Shown one piece after another: positions 2,633-23,271 of a DNA stretch of 32,216 nucleotides. The notes beneath the pieces were generated by a model. The model had not been told where the DNA came from. It saw only the letters and a program-made list of their open reading frames with translations, and did not search any database. Made by a program: the position numbers and the translations under genes. The stretch covers positions 1 through 32,216 of the forward strand of contig JAGOHT010000003.1 in assembly GCA_017996055.1 (NCBI GenBank). The letters are read 5' to 3'. Origin of the DNA: Alphaproteobacteria bacterium (GTDB taxonomy: Bacteria > Pseudomonadota > Alphaproteobacteria > UBA9219 > RFNS01). How positions within the stretch are numbered: position 1 is the stretch's first letter; each line of letters begins with the position of its first letter.

Positions 2633-3067
2633 TTAGGCTTTTGTTTGGAGATTTTGCGCCACAGCGCGCAGCGCCAGCGTATAGCCAGCTGCGCCAAGAC
2701 CACAAATCACGCCAGTTGCGGCGTAGGAAATATAGGAATGGTGCCGGAAACTTTCACGGCGGAAAATATTGCTGAGATGCACTTCATAGATGGGCAATTC
2801 GGTCAGCATCAGCGCATCCATCAACGCCACGGAGGTATGGGTGTAGCCACCGGCATTGATGATGATCGCGCGGAAAGCGCCACGCGACTGCTGCACCCAA
2901 TTAATAAGCTCGCTCTCGCTGTTGCTTTGGCAGAATTCAATTGAGAGCTTTAACTCCTTGGCCACTGCCAGACAATCCAGCTCAATGTCGGCCAGCGTCG
3001 TCTTACCGTAAATATTGGTTTCGCGTACGCCCAAGAGATTGAGATTGGGGCCGGAGAGAATCAGCAC
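2633..3067 (-). CDS. aroQ: Type II 3-dehydroquinate dehydratase
   Basis: Dehydrates 3-dehydroquinate to 3-dehydroshikimate in the shikimate pathway. Family motifs are clear: GPNLNLLG at the N terminus, the catalytic tyrosine in RETNIYG, QSNSESELI, NAGGYTHTSVAL, and EVHLSNIFRRESFRHHSYIS. I place the start at GTG 3067, giving 144 residues and the normal N terminus (five residues before GPNLNLLG). An ATG at 3142 in the same frame would add 25 non-family residues and overlap the preceding thiol oxidoreductase gene. No clear Shine-Dalgarno precedes the GTG beyond GGCGG, and a GC-rich hairpin ends only two bases upstream, so initiation may be controlled or coupled. The start is the uncertain part; the product is not. 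Confidence 0.92.
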   Translation of the reverse strand: MLILSGPNLNLLGVRETNIYGKTTLADIELDCLAVAKELKLSIEFCQSNSESELINWVQQSRGAFRAIIINAGGYTHTSVALMDALMLTELPIYEVHLSNIFRRESFRHHSYISYAATGVICGLGAAGYTLALRAVAQNLQTKA

Positions 3068-3069
3068 AT

Positions 3070-3095
3070 CGCCGCCGCGCTGTGGCGCGGCGGCG
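3070..3095. promoter_or_regulatory. GC-rich hairpin directly before the aroQ start
   Basis: A perfect 11-bp inverted repeat (CGCCGCCGCGC / GCGCGGCGGCG) with a 4-base loop TGTG lies in the 52-base gap between the dsbA-like gene and aroQ. No T-tract follows it in the direction of transcription, so it is not a standard intrinsic terminator. It would cover the ribosome landing site of the GTG start. It may act as an RNA processing or stabilising element, or limit aroQ translation. If the upstream ATG 3142 were used it would lie inside the coding sequence. Confidence 0.55.
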
Positions 3096-3119
3096 GATTT
3101 AGCTGACGCTCCGCACAGA

Positions 3120-3863
3120 TTACTTTTTTGCGGCGCGGGCATCGGCAACAGCCTTCTTGAGACCCTCGGCGTCCATTGCGCCCGGAGTGACCGCGTCGCC
3201 GATGATGAACATCGGGGTACCGCGGACGCCAAGGTCATTACCCAACTTGCGGTTTGTCGCAATGATATCGTCGATGGATTTATCGTTCATATCGCGCTTA
3301 AGCTGGGCGGCATCAAGCCCCGCACGTTGTGCGATATCAGCTATGGCGGCATCGTTGATCTGGCCGCGAAAGCCCATCAAGGTGCTATGGAATTTCTCAA
3401 ACTTCTTCTGTTTGACGCTGGCGAGTGCCGCGCGCGCGCCGAGCACAGACCCTTCTCCAAGAATTGGGAACTCTTTGGCGATGAAACGAATATTTTTATC
3501 AGACTTAAGCAGCTCTTCGACAATCGGTTGCGCCATTTTGCAATAGCCACAGGCATAATCGTAGAACTCGACGATTGTGACATCACCCTTTGGATTGCCC
3601 AATACCGGCGAACTCGGCTCGTCATAAATCCGGTCTTTGTGCTTCGCGACGGCTTCTTTAGCGATAGCCATTTGCTGCTGCTGGTCACGCTGCTTCAAGA
3701 CTTCAACCGCCTTCATGACGGTCTCAGGTTCCTTTTCAATCAGGAACTGTCGGATGATGGTTTCTACTTCTGACTTTTGCGCGGCGGTCAGTCCCTCGTC
3801 AGCGGCTTGCACTGGCAGCGCCAGGAAAAAGCCACAGGCGGCAAGGGTCAGCATTTTTTTCAT
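3120..3863 (-). CDS. Periplasmic DsbA/ScsC-like thiol:disulfide oxidoreductase
   Basis: A 247-residue exported thioredoxin-fold protein. A signal peptide occupies residues 1-20 (MKKMLTLAACGFFLALPVQA, cleavage after AQA-like VQA). Residues 25-80 form a charged helical segment like the N-terminal oligomerisation part of ScsC-type isomerases. The thioredoxin domain has the active site YACGYCK (Cys105, Cys108) and the cis-proline loop GVRGTPMF (Thr216-Pro217). CGYC and Thr before the cis-proline fit DsbA/BdbD/ScsC relatives rather than classical E. coli DsbA (CPHC). It probably oxidises or isomerises disulfides of envelope proteins. A strong Shine-Dalgarno TAGGAG precedes the ATG. It lies between the M48 peptidase and aroQ, an arrangement I know from other alphaproteobacteria. 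Confidence 0.88.
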   Translation of the reverse strand: MKKMLTLAACGFFLALPVQAADEGLTAAQKSEVETIIRQFLIEKEPETVMKAVEVLKQRDQQQQMAIAKEAVAKHKDRIYDEPSSPVLGNPKGDVTIVEFYDYACGYCKMAQPIVEELLKSDKNIRFIAKEFPILGEGSVLGARAALASVKQKKFEKFHSTLMGFRGQINDAAIADIAQRAGLDAAQLKRDMNDKSIDDIIATNRKLGNDLGVRGTPMFIIGDAVTPGAMDAEGLKKAVADARAAKK

Positions 3864-7946: not shown

Positions 7947-8337
7947 TTTATCTCTCCCGCCAGACTGTCGCCACCAAGCGCTTTTACAAGCTGCGATGCG
8001 GCGCCATGACCGGCAAATCTATGCGTCGCGGGAACAATTCCCTCGACTGGTCAAAATCCATCGCCCGAGGGCGACACAACTCATGTAAGCGATTATCGCA
8101 GTGGCATTTTTTACGCTAAAGCGTCATTTTGCCGCGTCTGCGGAAGGTGGCTACGCAATATTAAGCCGCGCAATCACTTCCCTCACATGAGCGCGCATCA
8201 TAGGCGCATTAAAGACGTGCTGACAATCAAAGATTTTTCCCATTGAATTTGCTCATTATTTTTCATCGCATAAAAGACTCAATCTTGAGGCAATTTTCGT
8301 TTATCTATCGCCTCTCACTTATGTGGTGGCCTGCGTC
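7947..8337. other. Divergent intergenic region between rne and mrcA (391 bases)
   Basis: No convincing gene is seen. It must hold the divergent promoters of rne and mrcA and the rne leader. A short inverted repeat ACGCT-AA-AGCGT lies near 8112, and the last 150 bases are AT-richer. In several alphaproteobacteria an N-acetylmuramoyl-L-alanine amidase gene lies here; no trace of it is visible. Confidence 0.5.
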
Positions 8338-10974
8338 ATGCGGTTTTTCCAATATCTCGCTTCGATAGCCCTTATTCTATTAGTGGTTGGCCTTGGTGCG
8401 GGTTTTTACCTGTTTTCGGTCTTCAGTCGCGACCTGCCTGACCATGCGGTTCTGAAAGATTATCGGCCACCGATTCTCTCACGCGTTTATGCCGGTGATG
8501 GGCGTCTGCTTTCCACAATAGCGGCGGAGCAGCGCGTCTTTGTCCCGATAGCCTCCGTGCCCAAGCGGGTGATTAACGCCTTCATTTCTGCCGAGGACAA
8601 AGATTTTTACACCCACATCGGTATCGATCCGGAGGGGATTGCCCGCGCGGGGCTCAATTATTTCCGCAAGGTCAAGGAAGGCAAGCGGGCAGGCGGCGCT
8701 TCAACCATCACCCAGCAGGTCGCCAAAAACTTCCTGCTTGGCGACGAATACAGCTTCTCTCGCAAAATCCGGGAGGCGATTCTGGCTGTGCGGATTGAGC
8801 GCGCGCTCAGCAAAAACCGCATTCTTGAGCTTTACCTCAACCAGATTTTTCTCGGTAACCGCTCTTATGGCGTGGCCGCCGCCGCACAGAACTATTTCGC
8901 CAAGGCGCTTGATGAGTTGACGATTGCCGAGGCCGCTTATCTCGCTGCTTTGCCAAAAGCGCCCAACAACTACCATCCAGTGCGAAATCACGATAAAGCT
9001 ACGGAGCGCCGCAACTGGGTCATTGGCCGAATGCTGGAAGACGGGCGTATAACGGCTGAGGAAGCCAAGGCGGCGCAGGCCGAGCCAATTACCATGCACA
9101 CGCGCGACGTCGAGGCAATGGTCACGGCGGATTATTATGCCGAGGAAGTGCGCCGTGACTTAATCGACCGCTTTGGCGAGCAAACCGTGCTGGAAGGTGG
9201 GCTTGTCGTTCGAACCAGCTTAGACCCAGCCTTGCAAAGTGCGGCGACAAAAGCGCTGCGAGACGGTCTGACCGACTTTGACCGGCGGGTGCGGGGCTAT
9301 CGCGGGCCAGTCGCACATTTGAAAAATATGCAAAACTGGCGCGCCGAGCTAGCAGCTATTGCGATACCGGCGGGGGGGGAGGATTGGGAGCTTGCCGTCG
9401 TGCTGCGTATTTTGGCTGATAAGGTAGAGATTGGCCTACGCGATGGCCATGGGGCGCAGATTCCATGGGCAGAGATGCGCTGGGCGCGTAAGGAGCTGGC
9501 TAGGGGGTTTGGTCCGGCCGTAAACAAGCCGTCGGATGTTTTGAGTGTCGGCGATGTCGTGCTGGCGGAGGCGCTGAGCGACGATCGCACCCGTTTCGCC
9601 TTACGCCAAGTGCCGAAAGTCTCCGGCGCCATCGTGGCGATGAACCCGCATACGGGGCGCGTCTATGCCATGACCGGCGGCTTCAGCACGAAAATGAGCC
9701 AGTTCAATCGGGCGACCCAGGCGCAGCGCCAACCGGGCTCCTCTTTCAAACCGTTCGTCTATCTGGCGGCTCTTGATAACGGCTTTACGCCGTCGAGCCT
9801 CGTGATGGATGCACCTTTTGCCTATAGTCAGGGGCCGGGGTTGCCGCTCTGGCGGCCAGAAAATTATTCGCAACAGTTTTACGGCCCCACGCCGCTACGC
9901 GTTGGCCTTGAAAAATCACGTAACGTCATGACCGTGCGGCTGGCCAACAAGGTCGGCATGAACACGATTGTCGATTACGCCAAGAAATTCGGTATTGCCG
10001 ATACTATGCCAACTTTCTTATCTTTCGCGCTCGGTTCGAAAGAGACCACGGTGCTGCGACTGACCACCGCTTACGCCATGCTTGATAATGGCGGCAAGAA
10101 AATCAGCCCGACATTGATTGACCGCGTGCAGGACCGCGATGGTCGCACGATTTGGCGGCGCGATGCGACACAGTGTCCGACTTGTCAGGTGTCGGATGAC
10201 CAGACCTCGAATTTTGTCGCGCCGGAAATTTCCGATACGCGCGAACAAATTTCTGATCCGCGCACGGTCTACCAGCTGGTGACAATGATGCAGGGCGTTT
10301 GCGAGCGTGGCACCGCGGCAGCCTTGCGGGCGCTGGGTAAACCGGTCGCTGGGAAAACCGGCACGACGAATGACAGCAAGGACGTCTGGTTTATCGGCTT
10401 CACGCCTGACCTGGTGGCGGGAGTCTTCGTCGGTTACGACAATCCGGAGCCACTTGGCTCACATGAGACCGGCGCCAGCATCGCTGTACCGGTGTTCGAG
10501 AGCTTTATGCATGCCGCGCTGAAAGACCAACCGGCCACGCCATTCCGAGTGCCTCCTGGCTTGCGTCAGGTACGCATTGATGCGTCAACCGGACGCCCGG
10601 CTGGTGAAGAAACCAAACTGGCGATTTGGGAAGCTTTCTTGCCAGGGACAGAGCCTGGCGATGCGCCGCCGCCTATCCTTGATGGTAGCGCCGGAGAAGT
10701 TGGCTATGTGCCACCTGACCAACGCGTGGAGACGCCCGACGGTGTCAACCCTGAAGGCAGCGAGCCCCTTATGCAAGGACCAAACGGCGCTTATCCCTGG
10801 CCTCCGACCGATGACGCCGCAAACCCCGGTATGATCGCGCCGCAAACGGCACAGCCAGGCACATATCCCGCAAGCGTGAACGGAGCTATGCAGGGGATGC
10901 CCGATCCGCGCGCCATTATTCAGAACAGTGGGACTCCACCGACTCCAGCGCCCCAGCCAGGCGGCTTATACTAA
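8338..10974 (+). CDS. mrcA: Penicillin-binding protein 1A, bifunctional peptidoglycan synthase
   Basis: Polymerises glycan strands and cross-links peptides in the periplasm, anchored in the inner membrane. From ATG 8338 the protein has 878 residues and begins MRFFQYLASIALILLVVGLG, a typical PBP1A anchor; a GTG five codons earlier is the only upstream alternative. The glycosyltransferase domain shows AEDKDFYTHIGID (catalytic Glu86), GGASTITQQVAKN, RKIREAILAVRIE and LELYLNQIFLG. The transpeptidase domain has SSFK (Ser468-Lys471), SRN (527-529) and KTG (673-675). After about residue 760 comes a Pro/Gly-rich low-complexity tail of about 115 residues that lacks known domains. It converges on folKP with stop codons directly abutting. 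Confidence 0.97.
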   Translation: MRFFQYLASIALILLVVGLGAGFYLFSVFSRDLPDHAVLKDYRPPILSRVYAGDGRLLSTIAAEQRVFVPIASVPKRVINAFISAEDKDFYTHIGIDPEGIARAGLNYFRKVKEGKRAGGASTITQQVAKNFLLGDEYSFSRKIREAILAVRIERALSKNRILELYLNQIFLGNRSYGVAAAAQNYFAKALDELTIAEAAYLAALPKAPNNYHPVRNHDKATERRNWVIGRMLEDGRITAEEAKAAQAEPITMHTRDVEAMVTADYYAEEVRRDLIDRFGEQTVLEGGLVVRTSLDPALQSAATKALRDGLTDFDRRVRGYRGPVAHLKNMQNWRAELAAIAIPAGGEDWELAVVLRILADKVEIGLRDGHGAQIPWAEMRWARKELARGFGPAVNKPSDVLSVGDVVLAEALSDDRTRFALRQVPKVSGAIVAMNPHTGRVYAMTGGFSTKMSQFNRATQAQRQPGSSFKPFVYLAALDNGFTPSSLVMDAPFAYSQGPGLPLWRPENYSQQFYGPTPLRVGLEKSRNVMTVRLANKVGMNTIVDYAKKFGIADTMPTFLSFALGSKETTVLRLTTAYAMLDNGGKKISPTLIDRVQDRDGRTIWRRDATQCPTCQVSDDQTSNFVAPEISDTREQISDPRTVYQLVTMMQGVCERGTAAALRALGKPVAGKTGTTNDSKDVWFIGFTPDLVAGVFVGYDNPEPLGSHETGASIAVPVFESFMHAALKDQPATPFRVPPGLRQVRIDASTGRPAGEETKLAIWEAFLPGTEPGDAPPPILDGSAGEVGYVPPDQRVETPDGVNPEGSEPLMQGPNGAYPWPPTDDAANPGMIAPQTAQPGTYPASVNGAMQGMPDPRAIIQNSGTPPTPAPQPGGLY

Positions 10975-12255
10975 TTAGACCTGTTGCGTGATGTGCGCGA
11001 CAGCCAGCCATGCTGCGATGTGGCGTTCCGGTGCATGAACGCGTAGCACATCGACTCCGCGGCGGCAGAGCTCAAGCGAAACGCCCATACCGGCATCGTC
11101 ACGGTTTGCGGCGGACGCCGCGGTCCACAGCTGCATAAAAGATTTGCGCGAATGACCAATGAGCAGACGCACTGGCAAATCCTGCAATTCCTGACAACGC
11201 TGCAACAGCGTGAGCGATTGCTGTGGTGTTTTACCAAAGCCGATACCCGGGTCGAGTAGCACACGGCTGAGCGCGATGCCCTGGCGGTCGAGCAATGCCA
11301 GTTTCTCGAGCGCCCAGTCGCGCACGGTCGCGACCGGATCGCAGGCTCCTTCAAGAACCTTCGTGCGGTCGGCGGGTATAGAAAGACTGTGCATTAAGAC
11401 ATAATCACAGGCGCTATTCTTAAGTAGCGGCAGCATGGCGGGATCGGTCAGGCCGCTCACATCGTTGATGATATCCGCCCCAAGTGCGAGTGCCTTTTCC
11501 GCCGTGCTGGCGCGGTAGGTATCGATGCTGAGGTGGGGGCGGAAGAACTGCCCATGATAACGCTGCTTGATGAGGCGCAACATCGGCTCAAGCCTTTGCC
11601 ACTCTTCGCCTGCCGTGAGTGGCAGCGCGCCTGGGCGGGTTGATTCTGCGCCGAGGTCCAATATTTGTACACCCGCACGGTCATAGGTCTCCAGCCGCTC
11701 CGAACATTGTTCCGGCGTGGCCAGCGCACCACCGTCGGAGAATGAGTCCGGCGTCAGATTGAGAATACCCATCCAAAGTGGGGCGTGGGTTGGTAAGCGA
11801 CGTGCTGCGCTCAGAACTAATTGGCCGTTCGGTAGGGTTAAATCGGGCGCGCAATGGAGCAGCGGGTCGAGGGCGAAGCTGCGTTCATAAAGTCCGTAAT
11901 GAGGGATTTGCAGATTGGGCTCAGCGATAGCATCATTTCCGAACAGCAGGATGTCGAGATCGATGACACGCGGAGCCCAGCGCTCCGCCGCGACACGACC
12001 GAGCATATTCTCAATATTCTTGAGCGCTGCCAACAACGCCTGCGGTGTTCCAAGCCAGTTGAGCCCAAGCACACTATTGAGATAAGGGATATTCCAACCG
12101 TCGGGCGCATTCGGCGGCAGGAGAGCCGGTGTCATGAATACCGGCCCGGCCTTTAGGGGCTTGGCATCCGGATGAGCGAACAAAGCCCGACCGGCGGCCT
12201 CAAGATTCGCACGCCGGTCGCCAAGATTGCTGCCAAGACCGATATAACACTGCAT
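10975..12255 (-). CDS. folKP: Fused HPPK-DHPS: bifunctional folate synthesis enzyme (FolK-FolP)
   Basis: Pyrophosphorylates 6-hydroxymethyl-dihydropterin and then condenses it with p-aminobenzoate to dihydropteroate. The 426-residue protein is a true fusion without an internal stop. Residues 1 to about 158 are HPPK (IGLGSNLGDRRANL at the N terminus, RWAPRVIDLDILLFG, IPHYGLYERSFAL). Residues about 160-426 are DHPS (MGILNLTPDSFSDGG, GAESTRPGA, LSIDTYRA, ADIINDVSG, LDPGIGFGKT, LIGHSRKSF, VLRVHAP). Separate genes are more usual in free-living proteobacteria; fusions are known in Chlamydiae, Rickettsia and some others. It starts 21 bases after the CADD-family gene on the same strand, so pABA supply and pABA use are encoded side by side. 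No clear Shine-Dalgarno is seen, which suggests coupling to the upstream gene. Confidence 0.95.
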   Translation of the reverse strand: MQCYIGLGSNLGDRRANLEAAGRALFAHPDAKPLKAGPVFMTPALLPPNAPDGWNIPYLNSVLGLNWLGTPQALLAALKNIENMLGRVAAERWAPRVIDLDILLFGNDAIAEPNLQIPHYGLYERSFALDPLLHCAPDLTLPNGQLVLSAARRLPTHAPLWMGILNLTPDSFSDGGALATPEQCSERLETYDRAGVQILDLGAESTRPGALPLTAGEEWQRLEPMLRLIKQRYHGQFFRPHLSIDTYRASTAEKALALGADIINDVSGLTDPAMLPLLKNSACDYVLMHSLSIPADRTKVLEGACDPVATVRDWALEKLALLDRQGIALSRVLLDPGIGFGKTPQQSLTLLQRCQELQDLPVRLLIGHSRKSFMQLWTAASAANRDDAGMGVSLELCRRGVDVLRVHAPERHIAAWLAVAHITQQV

Positions 12256-12276
12256 GAAGTAGAGCGGCGAAACGCC

Positions 12277-12945
12277 TTAAGCGGCGCAGCGCTGCCCGTC
12301 ACAGCCATGCACTTCGCTCAAGAAGTCCCAGAGTGCGGTCGCTGCGCGTTCTGCAGCTTGGGCAGCCTCCTGCTTTTTATCTTCCGGCAGAGTGTCAAGA
12401 ATATCCTTAAGCACTTGCCGGTGCTCCACATCCGCCGTCTTGTGCACTTCAAAGAACTGCAAAGTCGCGGCATCGTTGATGCCATACTGCGTCTTCAGAC
12501 CTGTGATTTTGGAATCAGCAATTTCTGGCACTTGCGATTCATAGGCGTAAAGCGCCCCTAGCCCTACGTGATACGAAGAATGGGCGGCGTCGAAGAAGGT
12601 CTTTATCACCTTTTGTATGGCCGGGCGTGGCACACTGGATTTGACGGAATCTTCATCAGCGCCAACACCAGCGGCGAACTGCAGCCACAATTCGGGGTGC
12701 GACTTATCGTAGCCGACGCCTTCTTCATCGTTAAGATTTTCAAGGATAGCACGGCGCTGTGTTGCGTCTTCACACTGAGAGTGAATGGCGCCCAGGTAGC
12801 GCGGGAACGCCGCAACGTGATGATAATATTGCGCCGCATAGTCCTTGAGCTGCTCGGGGGTGATTTTACCCTGCATCCAATCCATATAGAATGGGTGCTG
12901 CAACAAGTGCAAAGGTGCGAGTTTGGCGGCGAAAGTATCGATCAT
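12277..12945 (-). CDS. CADD-family protein, probable self-sacrificing p-aminobenzoate synthase
   Basis: A 222-residue all-helical heme-oxygenase-like (TenA/PqqC fold) di-metal protein of the CADD folate-related family. From known Chlamydia trachomatis CADD, the di-metal ligands map here to Glu74, His83, Glu136, His168, Asp172 and His175 (HKTADVEH). The tyrosine that becomes pABA maps to Tyr20 (HPFYMDW), the second tyrosine of the radical relay to Tyr36, and the amino-donor lysine to Lys146 (ESQVPEIADSK, 10 residues after Glu136 as in CADD). CADD makes pABA from its own side chain, bypassing PabA/B/C. Mapping uses my memory of the CADD sequence. ATG 12945 is chosen over an upstream TTG. It ends in a Cys-containing tail (GCDGQRCAA). 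It is directly upstream of folKP, the pABA user. pABA synthesis is inferred, not shown. A generic oxygenase or thiaminase is less likely. Confidence 0.86.
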   Translation of the reverse strand: MIDTFAAKLAPLHLLQHPFYMDWMQGKITPEQLKDYAAQYYHHVAAFPRYLGAIHSQCEDATQRRAILENLNDEEGVGYDKSHPELWLQFAAGVGADEDSVKSSVPRPAIQKVIKTFFDAAHSSYHVGLGALYAYESQVPEIADSKITGLKTQYGINDAATLQFFEVHKTADVEHRQVLKDILDTLPEDKKQEAAQAAERAATALWDFLSEVHGCDGQRCAA

Positions 12946-13026
12946 GGCGGCTTCTTTCGTTAGAGGGCAAGGCAAATAACCTATGTCATCTTTTCGGCAG
13001 AAGCAACGCGCGCGTTCGATAAAAGC

Positions 13027-13066
13027 TTGAAATCAGCTAGTGCAATGAGCATAACTCTTCGAGTTA
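13027..13066 (+). promoter_or_regulatory. Candidate prfB promoter overlapped by a palindrome
   Basis: TTGAAA (13027-13032), 17 bases, then CATAAC (13050-13055) resembles a housekeeping promoter and lies 38 bases before the prfB ATG. A perfect palindrome TAACTC-TTC-GAGTTA (13052-13066) begins inside the -10 element, where a repressor could act. It lies in the 147-base divergent gap between the CADD gene and prfB. Seen by eye only. Confidence 0.4.
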
Positions 13067-13092
13067 CGTCACTTTACGGACTTAGGACAATT

Positions 13093-14209
13093 ATGCGTGC
13101 TGAAATTTTAGCGGTTGTTGCGGCGGTTGAAAAATCGCTGTCCCTGCTGAGGAGGCATCTTTGACTACGAAAAGTCGTGTGCCCGCCTTGAGGAGCTGAA
13201 CGCTCTCGCCGAGAATCCCCAGTTATGGAATGATTCAAAAAACGCGCAGGAAGTGATGCGTGAACGCACCAAGCTAGACCAGGCTTTGGGTGTCTATCGC
13301 AGCCTGGCGGCTGAGTTGGCGAACGGCATCGGCCTTTTGGAAATGGCTGAGGCGGAAGCCGACGCCGAACTCGTCGCGGAAGCCGAGCAGTCGCTCTTCC
13401 AGTTACAGGCAAAAGCGGCACAACGCGAGCTTGAAAGCCTGTTGTCCGGTGAAGCGGACGGTAATGATTGCTACCTTGAAGTCAATGCAGGCGCAGGCGG
13501 AACGGAAGCCCAGGATTGGGCACAGATGCTGCTACGCATGTATTCTCGCTGGGCGGAACAGCATGGCTACAAAATTGAGCTGCTGGATGAGAGCGGCGGT
13601 GAAGAGGCGGGAATTAAGTCCGCAACAATTCAGATAACCGGCCACAACGCCTATGGCTGGCTCAAGACGGAGTCAGGCGTCCACCGCCTGGTGCGGATTA
13701 GCCCTTATGATTCAAATGCGCGACGTCATACCAGTTTCTCCAGCGTCGCGGTCACGCCTGTAATCGATGACACCATCGATATCGTGGTCAACGAGGCGGA
13801 TCTCAAGATTGATACTTATCGGGCATCTGGCGCGGGTGGTCAGCATGTAAATAAAACCGAAAGCGCCGTCCGCTTCACCCATTTACCGACCGGCATTATC
13901 GTTGCCTGTCAGCAGGAACGGTCGCAGCATAAGAACCGCGAAAAGGCAATGAAGATGCTGAAAGCGCGGCTTTATGAATTGGAGCTGAAAAAGCGCGAGG
14001 CCGCCGCGGATGCCGTGGAAGCGCAGAAAACCGATATCGGTTGGGGACACCAGATCCGTTCCTATGTCTTGCAACCCTATCAGATGGTCAAGGATCAGCG
14101 TACTTCTGTCGAGAACACGCAGGCGCAAGCCGTGCTCGATGGTGATATCGATATGTTCCTGCAGGCTTCCTTGGCATCGCGCATCAAAGGACGCGAAGCG
14201 GAGGCTTAA
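13093..14209 (+). CDS. prfB: Peptide chain release factor 2, made through a +1 programmed frameshift
   Basis: Recognises UGA and UAA and releases the nascent peptide. Reading starts at ATG 13093 and runs 23 codons ([23 protein letters not shown]), then meets an in-frame TGA at 13162-13164. A +1 shift on CTT continues as [15 protein letters not shown] to TAA 14207, giving about 371 residues, the normal RF2 length. The GGQ peptidyl-hydrolysis motif is at 248-250 (E. coli 250-252). The stop-recognition tripeptide is SPY (203-205) rather than SPF, in [13 protein letters not shown], a variant I recall from other alphaproteobacteria. Annotating only the downstream frame would lose the N terminus. 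The stop codon overlaps the convergent rcnA-like stop by three bases. Confidence 0.95.
13150..13165 (+). promoter_or_regulatory. prfB autoregulatory +1 frameshift site
   Basis: AGGAGGCATCTTTGAC contains the three known elements: an internal Shine-Dalgarno AGGAGG three bases before the slippery CTT, the CTT codon itself, and TGA followed by C, a weak termination context. When RF2 is scarce the ribosome slips +1 and full RF2 is made; when plentiful, it stops. In E. coli the equivalent is AGGGGGTATCTTTGAC. Confidence 0.95.
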
Positions 14210-22377: not shown

Positions 22378-23184
22378 CTATTCCATCAAGTTGCTGATGG
22401 AAGAGGTCAGCTTCGCGGTCAGCGGTTGAATCGCCTCCTCGAACTTCAGGTTGACCTGCTCGGCATAGGCAACAGTGCGGACGTTATATTCCTTAAAGTC
22501 CTTGCTCTCGTTGACATATTGTGACTTCGTGCGGCCATTGTTGCTGCTATGTGTGACGCTACCGCCCATGGTTGCCAGATTATCCTGCGAGCGTGAGCCG
22601 CTTTCGTTACTGGTCGTGGTGGTGGTTTGCACCTTTTGCCCCTTGAGCGGACGCTCGGAGAGCTGGATGTCCACGGTGATAGCATAGGTAACGTTCTGGA
22701 TCATTTCGTTTGCCAGGAACGAAACGGCAGCGACGCCCAGACCAGCACCTGCCATTGCGGCGGTATTGCCGCCCAGCGCACCCGCCAGAGCGGCGGTGCC
22801 AGCACCTGCGAGCAACGGCTCACCATAGCTACCCATTAGCAGTTTTTCCTGCGAGTCCTTGTCAAGCTTACCAGCCTGCAACACGTTGGCGCGGAGCATG
22901 AAATGCGCCTTGTTTGGGTCGGTCACGATGCGATAACCACGCGCCTGGATGGCTTGCAACAGCGGGCCACGCAAATCTAGCTGCGGGTAATCAGAGGTGT
23001 TGCGTGCCGTTACAAAAACGGTTTTGGCGGCTTCCGGCACTGGGTCGAGGAAGATGCTCTCGCTCATATGCGTCTTCACTTGAAGGTCGCTGTGCTGAAT
23101 AACATTATGTGCCGCCTGGCAAGCGCCGAGGCTGCCTGCAACGACCGCCAGGGCCGCAACGCGACCAATCCGGTTCATGACCAT
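22378..23184 (-). CDS. TraT-family outer-membrane lipoprotein
   Basis: TraT-like surface lipoprotein, 268 residues. The signal peptide ends in a lipobox SLGAC (Cys22), followed by QAAHNVIQHSDLQVKTHMSESIFLDP, which is the TraT-like start (given in pieces: IQHSDLQVKTHM, SESIFLDP). Central Gly/Ala-rich hydrophobic segments (about 120-160, LLAGAGTAALAGALGG) are the putative membrane-interacting region. Plasmid TraT gives surface exclusion and serum resistance; the role of chromosomal relatives is unknown. ATG 23184 is chosen because GGGAG lies 7 bases before; the frame extends further upstream but without a ribosome site. It is flanked by a leftward terminator and stands alone, with no conjugation genes nearby. 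Confidence 0.85.
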   Translation of the reverse strand: MVMNRIGRVAALAVVAGSLGACQAAHNVIQHSDLQVKTHMSESIFLDPVPEAAKTVFVTARNTSDYPQLDLRGPLLQAIQARGYRIVTDPNKAHFMLRANVLQAGKLDKDSQEKLLMGSYGEPLLAGAGTAALAGALGGNTAAMAGAGLGVAAVSFLANEMIQNVTYAITVDIQLSERPLKGQKVQTTTTTSNESGSRSQDNLATMGGSVTHSSNNGRTKSQYVNESKDFKEYNVRTVAYAEQVNLKFEEAIQPLTAKLTSSISNLME

Positions 23185-23271
23185 AAATCTTCTCCCGCAA
23201 AGTTGGTTTGGAATGCATAGGGACAAAACCCATAGCGCAGACCGCCCCGTTAGGCAATCCCGCCCGCTGGT

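Follow-up and report, generated by a model that had tools for sequence, protein, structure and literature searches.

The CADD protein of Chlamydia trachomatis (CtCADD, CT610) sacrifices two of its own residues, Tyr27 and Lys152, to make pABA, and NePabS of Nitrosomonas europaea has been proven biochemically to do likewise with its Tyr25 and Lys159; its gene, ne1434, complements an E. coli deltapabABC mutant (PMC11965152). Putative members of the family have been listed in Wolbachia, Rickettsia, Sphingomonas and Chloroflexi (PMC11965152), and homologues of CT610 clustered with folABKP were already described in Chlamydia and Wolbachia in 2007 (PMC1971073). A pABA route outside Chlamydia and a CADD-folKP neighbourhood in an alphaproteobacterium (Wolbachia) are therefore already known. 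Our scan of GTDB genomes recovered 311 confirmed relatives from several phyla, and the 80 that were kept came from Bdellovibrionota, Myxococcota, Acidobacteriota, Armatimonadota, SAR11, Sphingomonas, Hyphomonadaceae, Rickettsiales, Coxiellaceae and others.

The window, the whole stretch of 32,216 nucleotides of alphaproteobacterial DNA, carries a CADD-family gene directly in front of a fused folate gene. A sequence-only reading of this DNA had proposed a chorismate-independent pABA route outside Chlamydia. The pairing of a CADD-type synthase with its user in an alphaproteobacterium, in a genome in which no PabB was found, stands, but the route is not novel in view of the proven NePabS, the Wolbachia clusters (PMC1971073) and the 311 relatives; the enzyme type was known before, and the window pair is a clear fresh example of it. 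We regard with good confidence the two genes as a pABA-to-dihydropteroate unit, most likely acquired whole from Bdellovibrionota-like bacteria, inserted between mrcA and prfB and replacing a native stand-alone FolP.

Gene pair and predicted active site

The predicted self-sacrificing pABA synthase gene (pabS, 12277..12945, minus strand) encodes 222 aa from an ATG start, and folKP (10975..12255, minus strand) encodes a fused HPPK-dihydropteroate synthase of 426 aa, the user of pABA, whose HPPK and DHPS domains both scored above cut-off (TIGR01498, 96 bits; TIGR01496, 238 bits). The 21 nt that separate the pabS stop from the folKP start (12256..12276), the distance given in the sequence-only reading, suggest that the two genes are likely co-transcribed. 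By its position, the divergent intergenic region between pabS and prfB (12946..13092) is the presumed promoter region of the pair, and a convincing consensus promoter was not found in it. The left border is formed by mrcA (PBP1A-type; 8323..10974, plus strand), the stop of which abuts that of folKP, and the right border by prfB (RF2; 13093..14209, plus strand), assigned from synteny, its leader and its frameshift site. The prfB gene starts at the ATG at 13093 and contains an in-frame TGA at 13159 within AGGAGG-CAT-CTT-TGA-C (13093-13170), the classic RF2 programmed +1 frameshift, and the listed open reading frame from 13253 covers only part of the gene. Elsewhere on the contig, which looks chromosomal, a TraT-family outer-membrane lipoprotein is encoded at 22378-23226 on the minus strand (PF05818, 203 bits).

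The match of the pabS product to TIGR04305 (276.2 bits against a cut-off of 200; E 1.6e-82) is not one of chance. In a HMMER alignment to 1RCW (CtCADD), with offsets counted, the six dimetal ligands E81, H88, E142, H174, D178 and H181 are all present, as E74, H83, E136, H168, D172 and H175, and the sacrificial Tyr27 and Lys152 and the essential Tyr43 are found as Y20, K146 and Y36; in addition, Y40, Y135 and F164 occupy the positions of Y47, Y141 and Y170. The family assignment, the homology of Tyr20 and Lys146 to their CtCADD counterparts and the identical spacing of Glu136-His168-Asp172-His175 and CADD 142-174-178-181, all put forward in the sequence-only reading, are thus borne out; 8va9 and 9pj4 were aligned as well. 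The catalytic positions are conserved in 85/85 homologue rows, where Y20 falls in a search pattern and K146 lies outside it; two further residues, Y40 and W87, do not vary. The structure predicted with AlphaFold from 34 sequences (pLDDT 94.5, pTM 0.90) has a CtCADD-like, seven-helix heme-oxygenase-like fold; its best structural matches are the CtCADD crystals (TM 0.90-0.91, rmsd 1.4-1.5), followed by PqqC (0.83).

By homology, the window protein very probably synthesises pABA from its own amino acids. By analogy with CtCADD and NePabS, O2 would be activated at the dimetal site and a radical transferred through aromatic residues (Y40, W87), after which the side chain of Tyr20 would be lost, oxidation with O2 would follow, Lys146 would donate the amine, and FolKP would couple the pABA to pterin pyrophosphate.

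We consider it very improbable that the protein is an oxidase of the CADD fold that acts on some other substrate or serves in regulation, and that it stands beside folKP by chance. Members of the HDO superfamily catalyse diverse reactions (PMC13108848), and a moonlighting role in apoptosis signalling has been attributed to CtCADD (PMC11965152), but here the two sacrificial residues, the second essential Tyr and every metal ligand are conserved, none of the 50 CADD genomes examined passes the PabB cut-off, and the linkage of CADD to folate genes recurs in separate lineages (Bdellovibrionales, Rickettsiaceae). Scores for PqqC (TIGR02111, 57.7 bits; cut-off 240) and BesC lie far below cut-off, and TenA was likewise rejected by cut-offs and scores; the active site had been reported as not conserved between PqqC and CT610 (PMC1971073).

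Origin of the pair at the mrcA-prfB junction

G003, which belongs to the same family but to another genus, has CADD-folKP at the position that it occupies in the window, with prfB on one side and mrcA on the other, although extra genes are present there too; the two CADD proteins share about 70% identity. In two genomes that lack the pair at this site, one of the same family (G002) and one of the same order (G005), prfB, mrcA and rne are directly adjacent, and the pair therefore looks inserted at a conserved mrcA-prfB junction. In the CADD tree, the window and G003 grouped with a member of the Bdellovibrionales (L018; 100/97); three further Bdellovibrionota complete a six-row clade (100/96), which lies apart from the sequences of Sphingomonas, Hyphomonadaceae, SAR11 and Rickettsiales. 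A separate DHPS tree was concordant, placing the FolKP of the window and of G003 with that of Bdellovibrionota (100/99), while two genomes of the same family (G001, G002) carry a stand-alone FolP in a far clade. Both trees are unrooted and contain no Chlamydia CADD, and the direction of transfer rests on nesting.

The gene order CADD-folB-folKP was found in Bdellovibrionales (L019 and L041, and L020 as far as the contig end), and folB-folKP-folA-CADD in Rickettsiaceae (L057, L065), with folB and folA identified by visual inspection of the N-terminal sequences. L018 was rejected as a further CADD-folKP pair truncated by its contig end: a helicase-like frame follows CADD, and folB-folKP of that genome lies on another contig.

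Taken together, from its sequence relationships the pair seems to have been acquired horizontally, as a unit, from a Bdellovibrionota-like donor; folB would have been lost or not carried over, and the direction is inferred. No sign of foreign origin was found in base composition or GC3. Vertical inheritance, or a source in Rickettsiales or Chlamydiae rather than Bdellovibrionota, is in our judgement quite improbable. Rickettsiaceae are themselves Alphaproteobacteria with a CADD-folKP cluster, and a topology uniting all CADDs of the order in one clade was not rejected (AU p 0.065). Against this, a grouping of the window and G003 with Rickettsiales CADD was rejected (AU p 8.6e-6), CADD and FolKP both fall inside Bdellovibrionota with strong support, the stand-alone FolP of the same-family genomes is unrelated, and CADD comes first in the window and last in Rickettsiaceae. 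Acquisition from Bdellovibrionota-like bacteria points to a cross-phylum horizontal transfer of the CADD route in which the native DHPS was displaced.

Further members of the order (G005, G012, G028) have a CADD of a second type, which falls close to L020 of the Bdellovibrionales (94/85); as the one-clade topology stands at AU p 0.065, two independent acquisitions in the order could not be demonstrated. A different FolKP was seen in G011, an order member with neither CADD nor a PF00425 locus: its fused protein (L130, 993-2324) groups with Rickettsiales FolKP (98/94) and is followed by a DHFR-looking open frame.

Sources of pABA and chorismate

The window's genome comprises 2.07 Mb in 218 contigs and is 93.5% complete, and each single absence from it is weak. 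The search for pabB and pabC suggested by the sequence-only reading gave no match to PF00425, the chorismate-binding family of PabB, TrpE and isochorismate synthase (controls 14/14 positive), and two Aminotran_4 proteins, one an IlvE above cut-off and the other below every PabC and IlvE cut-off. Within these searches, pabS is the only recognisable pABA source in the genome. The presence of aroQ, a type II 3-dehydroquinate dehydratase gene in the window and outside the module (2636..3124, minus strand), was confirmed (TIGR01088, 189 bits; cut-off 170). The supposition drawn from it, that chorismate is probably made, did not hold up: aroQ alone is no proof of chorismate synthesis, and since neither chorismate synthase (AroC; controls 14/14 positive) nor a chorismate-binding enzyme was found in this 93.5%-complete genome, chorismate production is doubtful. 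Possible explanations are that aroQ is a remnant or that a gap in the assembly hides aroC.

Neither AroC nor PF00425 was found in G005, a CADD-bearing member of the same order rated 100% complete. G003, which carries the same pair, retains aroC and an odd TrpEG/PhzE-like chorismate-binding/GATase gene, and loss of the chorismate branch is thus no strict companion of the pair. The G003 fusion gene is apparently split across two frames of the assembly (L137, 721-1386 and 1331-2599) and scores below the listed NCBIfam cut-offs; it is either a decaying gene or an assembly error.

Among 50 CADD-bearing genomes, PF00425 loci were absent from 20, single in 29 and double in one, where the two loci look like pieces of one split trpE; the best models for the single loci of the scanned named genomes were TrpE or isochorismate synthase. 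The PabB cut-off was passed by 0/50 of these genomes and by 18/59 relatives, all of them CADD-negative; this cut-off is strict, only 4/14 controls passing it, so that counting PF00425 loci is more informative. At least two PF00425 loci occurred in 1/50 CADD-positive genomes versus 23/53 CADD-negative relatives (Fisher p 2e-7, kinship uncorrected and the sets differing in kinship). One class-level genome (G057) encodes six weak TIGR04305-like proteins (L009, L013-L017; 32-71 bits, all under cut-off), which may represent an expansion of different HDO-type proteins.

Two order members (G007, G011) have DHPS and neither PabB nor CADD, so that pABA is probably scavenged in the order. In CADD-less members, chorismate-binding/GATase fusions of 620-670 aa (L155, 546-2402; L156, 545-2542), below the listed NCBIfam cut-offs, could be ADC synthases of unassigned type.

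These observations bear on the alternative that the pABA synthase gene is dispensable: the cell would obtain pABA or folate from a host or from prey, and the gene pair would be a relic or backup. The absence of TrpE and AroC from the window's genome suggests a nutrient-dependent life, and G007 and G011 manage with DHPS and neither pABA enzyme. We nevertheless think this alternative rather unlikely: in two genera with about 70% CADD identity the genes remain side by side at the same site, both intact and with all catalytic residues conserved, and folKP would be useless without a pABA source. A functional pair of this kind, a natural and tightly linked pABA synthase and user in a genome apparently without chorismate, would offer a clean setting for testing self-sacrifice as the sole pABA source.

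Metal-site residues and comparison with described systems

The residues F148/F177 of NePabS and Y141/Y170 of CtCADD tune the preference for Fe/Fe against Mn/Fe, and the engineered NePabS F148Y functions about equally with both and was termed 'cambialistic' (PMC11965152). The corresponding pair in the window protein is Tyr135/Phe164, the mixed state of NePabS F148Y. Tyr/Phe occurred in 72/85 homologue rows, Tyr/Tyr in 13/85 and Phe/Phe in 0/85; these rows are the window and its nearest relatives, some near-identical, and are no census of the family. Neither characterised wild-type enzyme, CtCADD or NePabS, has the Tyr/Phe state; the metal-site state most frequent in nature among the sampled sequences thus seems to differ from those of the wild-type enzymes characterised in the cited work. 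By analogy, the window enzyme, and likewise the natural Tyr/Phe majority, may work with either Fe/Fe or Mn/Fe.

We give even chances to a joint reading of these results, in which CADD-(folB)-folKP would be a transferable, chorismate-independent unit for the aromatic part of folate that passed from Bdellovibrionota to this alphaproteobacterial order and displaced the native FolP, after which PabB, TrpE and chorismate synthase were lost, the enzyme perhaps working with Fe/Fe or Mn/Fe.

Compared with the described systems, CtCADD (1RCW, 8VA9) shares with the window protein its fold (TM 0.90), the six ligands, the equivalents of Tyr27, Lys152 and Tyr43 and a folate-gene neighbourhood. However, the two are 36% identical in the structure alignment, position 170 is Tyr in CtCADD, which prefers Mn/Fe, and Phe in the window protein, and, unlike in Chlamydia, CADD directly precedes folKP in the window. 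NePabS (NE1434; close PDB relative 9pj4), likewise from a non-chlamydial bacterium, shares the sacrificial residues and the Phe at position 177, but has Phe at 148 (Tyr135 in the window) and an extra loop, and ne1434 stands apart from the other genes of folate synthesis (PMC11965152). PqqC has the heme-oxygenase-like fold at about 20% identity. The Wolbachia CT610 homologues and the Rickettsiaceae clusters L057 and L065 also combine CADD with folKP in Alphaproteobacteria; the latter differ in their gene order (folB-folKP-folA-CADD) and in the clades to which their CADD and FolKP belong. In the Bdellovibrionota clusters (L019, L041, L020), CADD lies upstream of folKP on the same strand, as in the window, and is among the sequences closest to it (50-54% identity), but folB sits between the two genes. 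The closest named relative, with 58% CADD identity (L018), differs in carrying folB-folKP on a separate contig.
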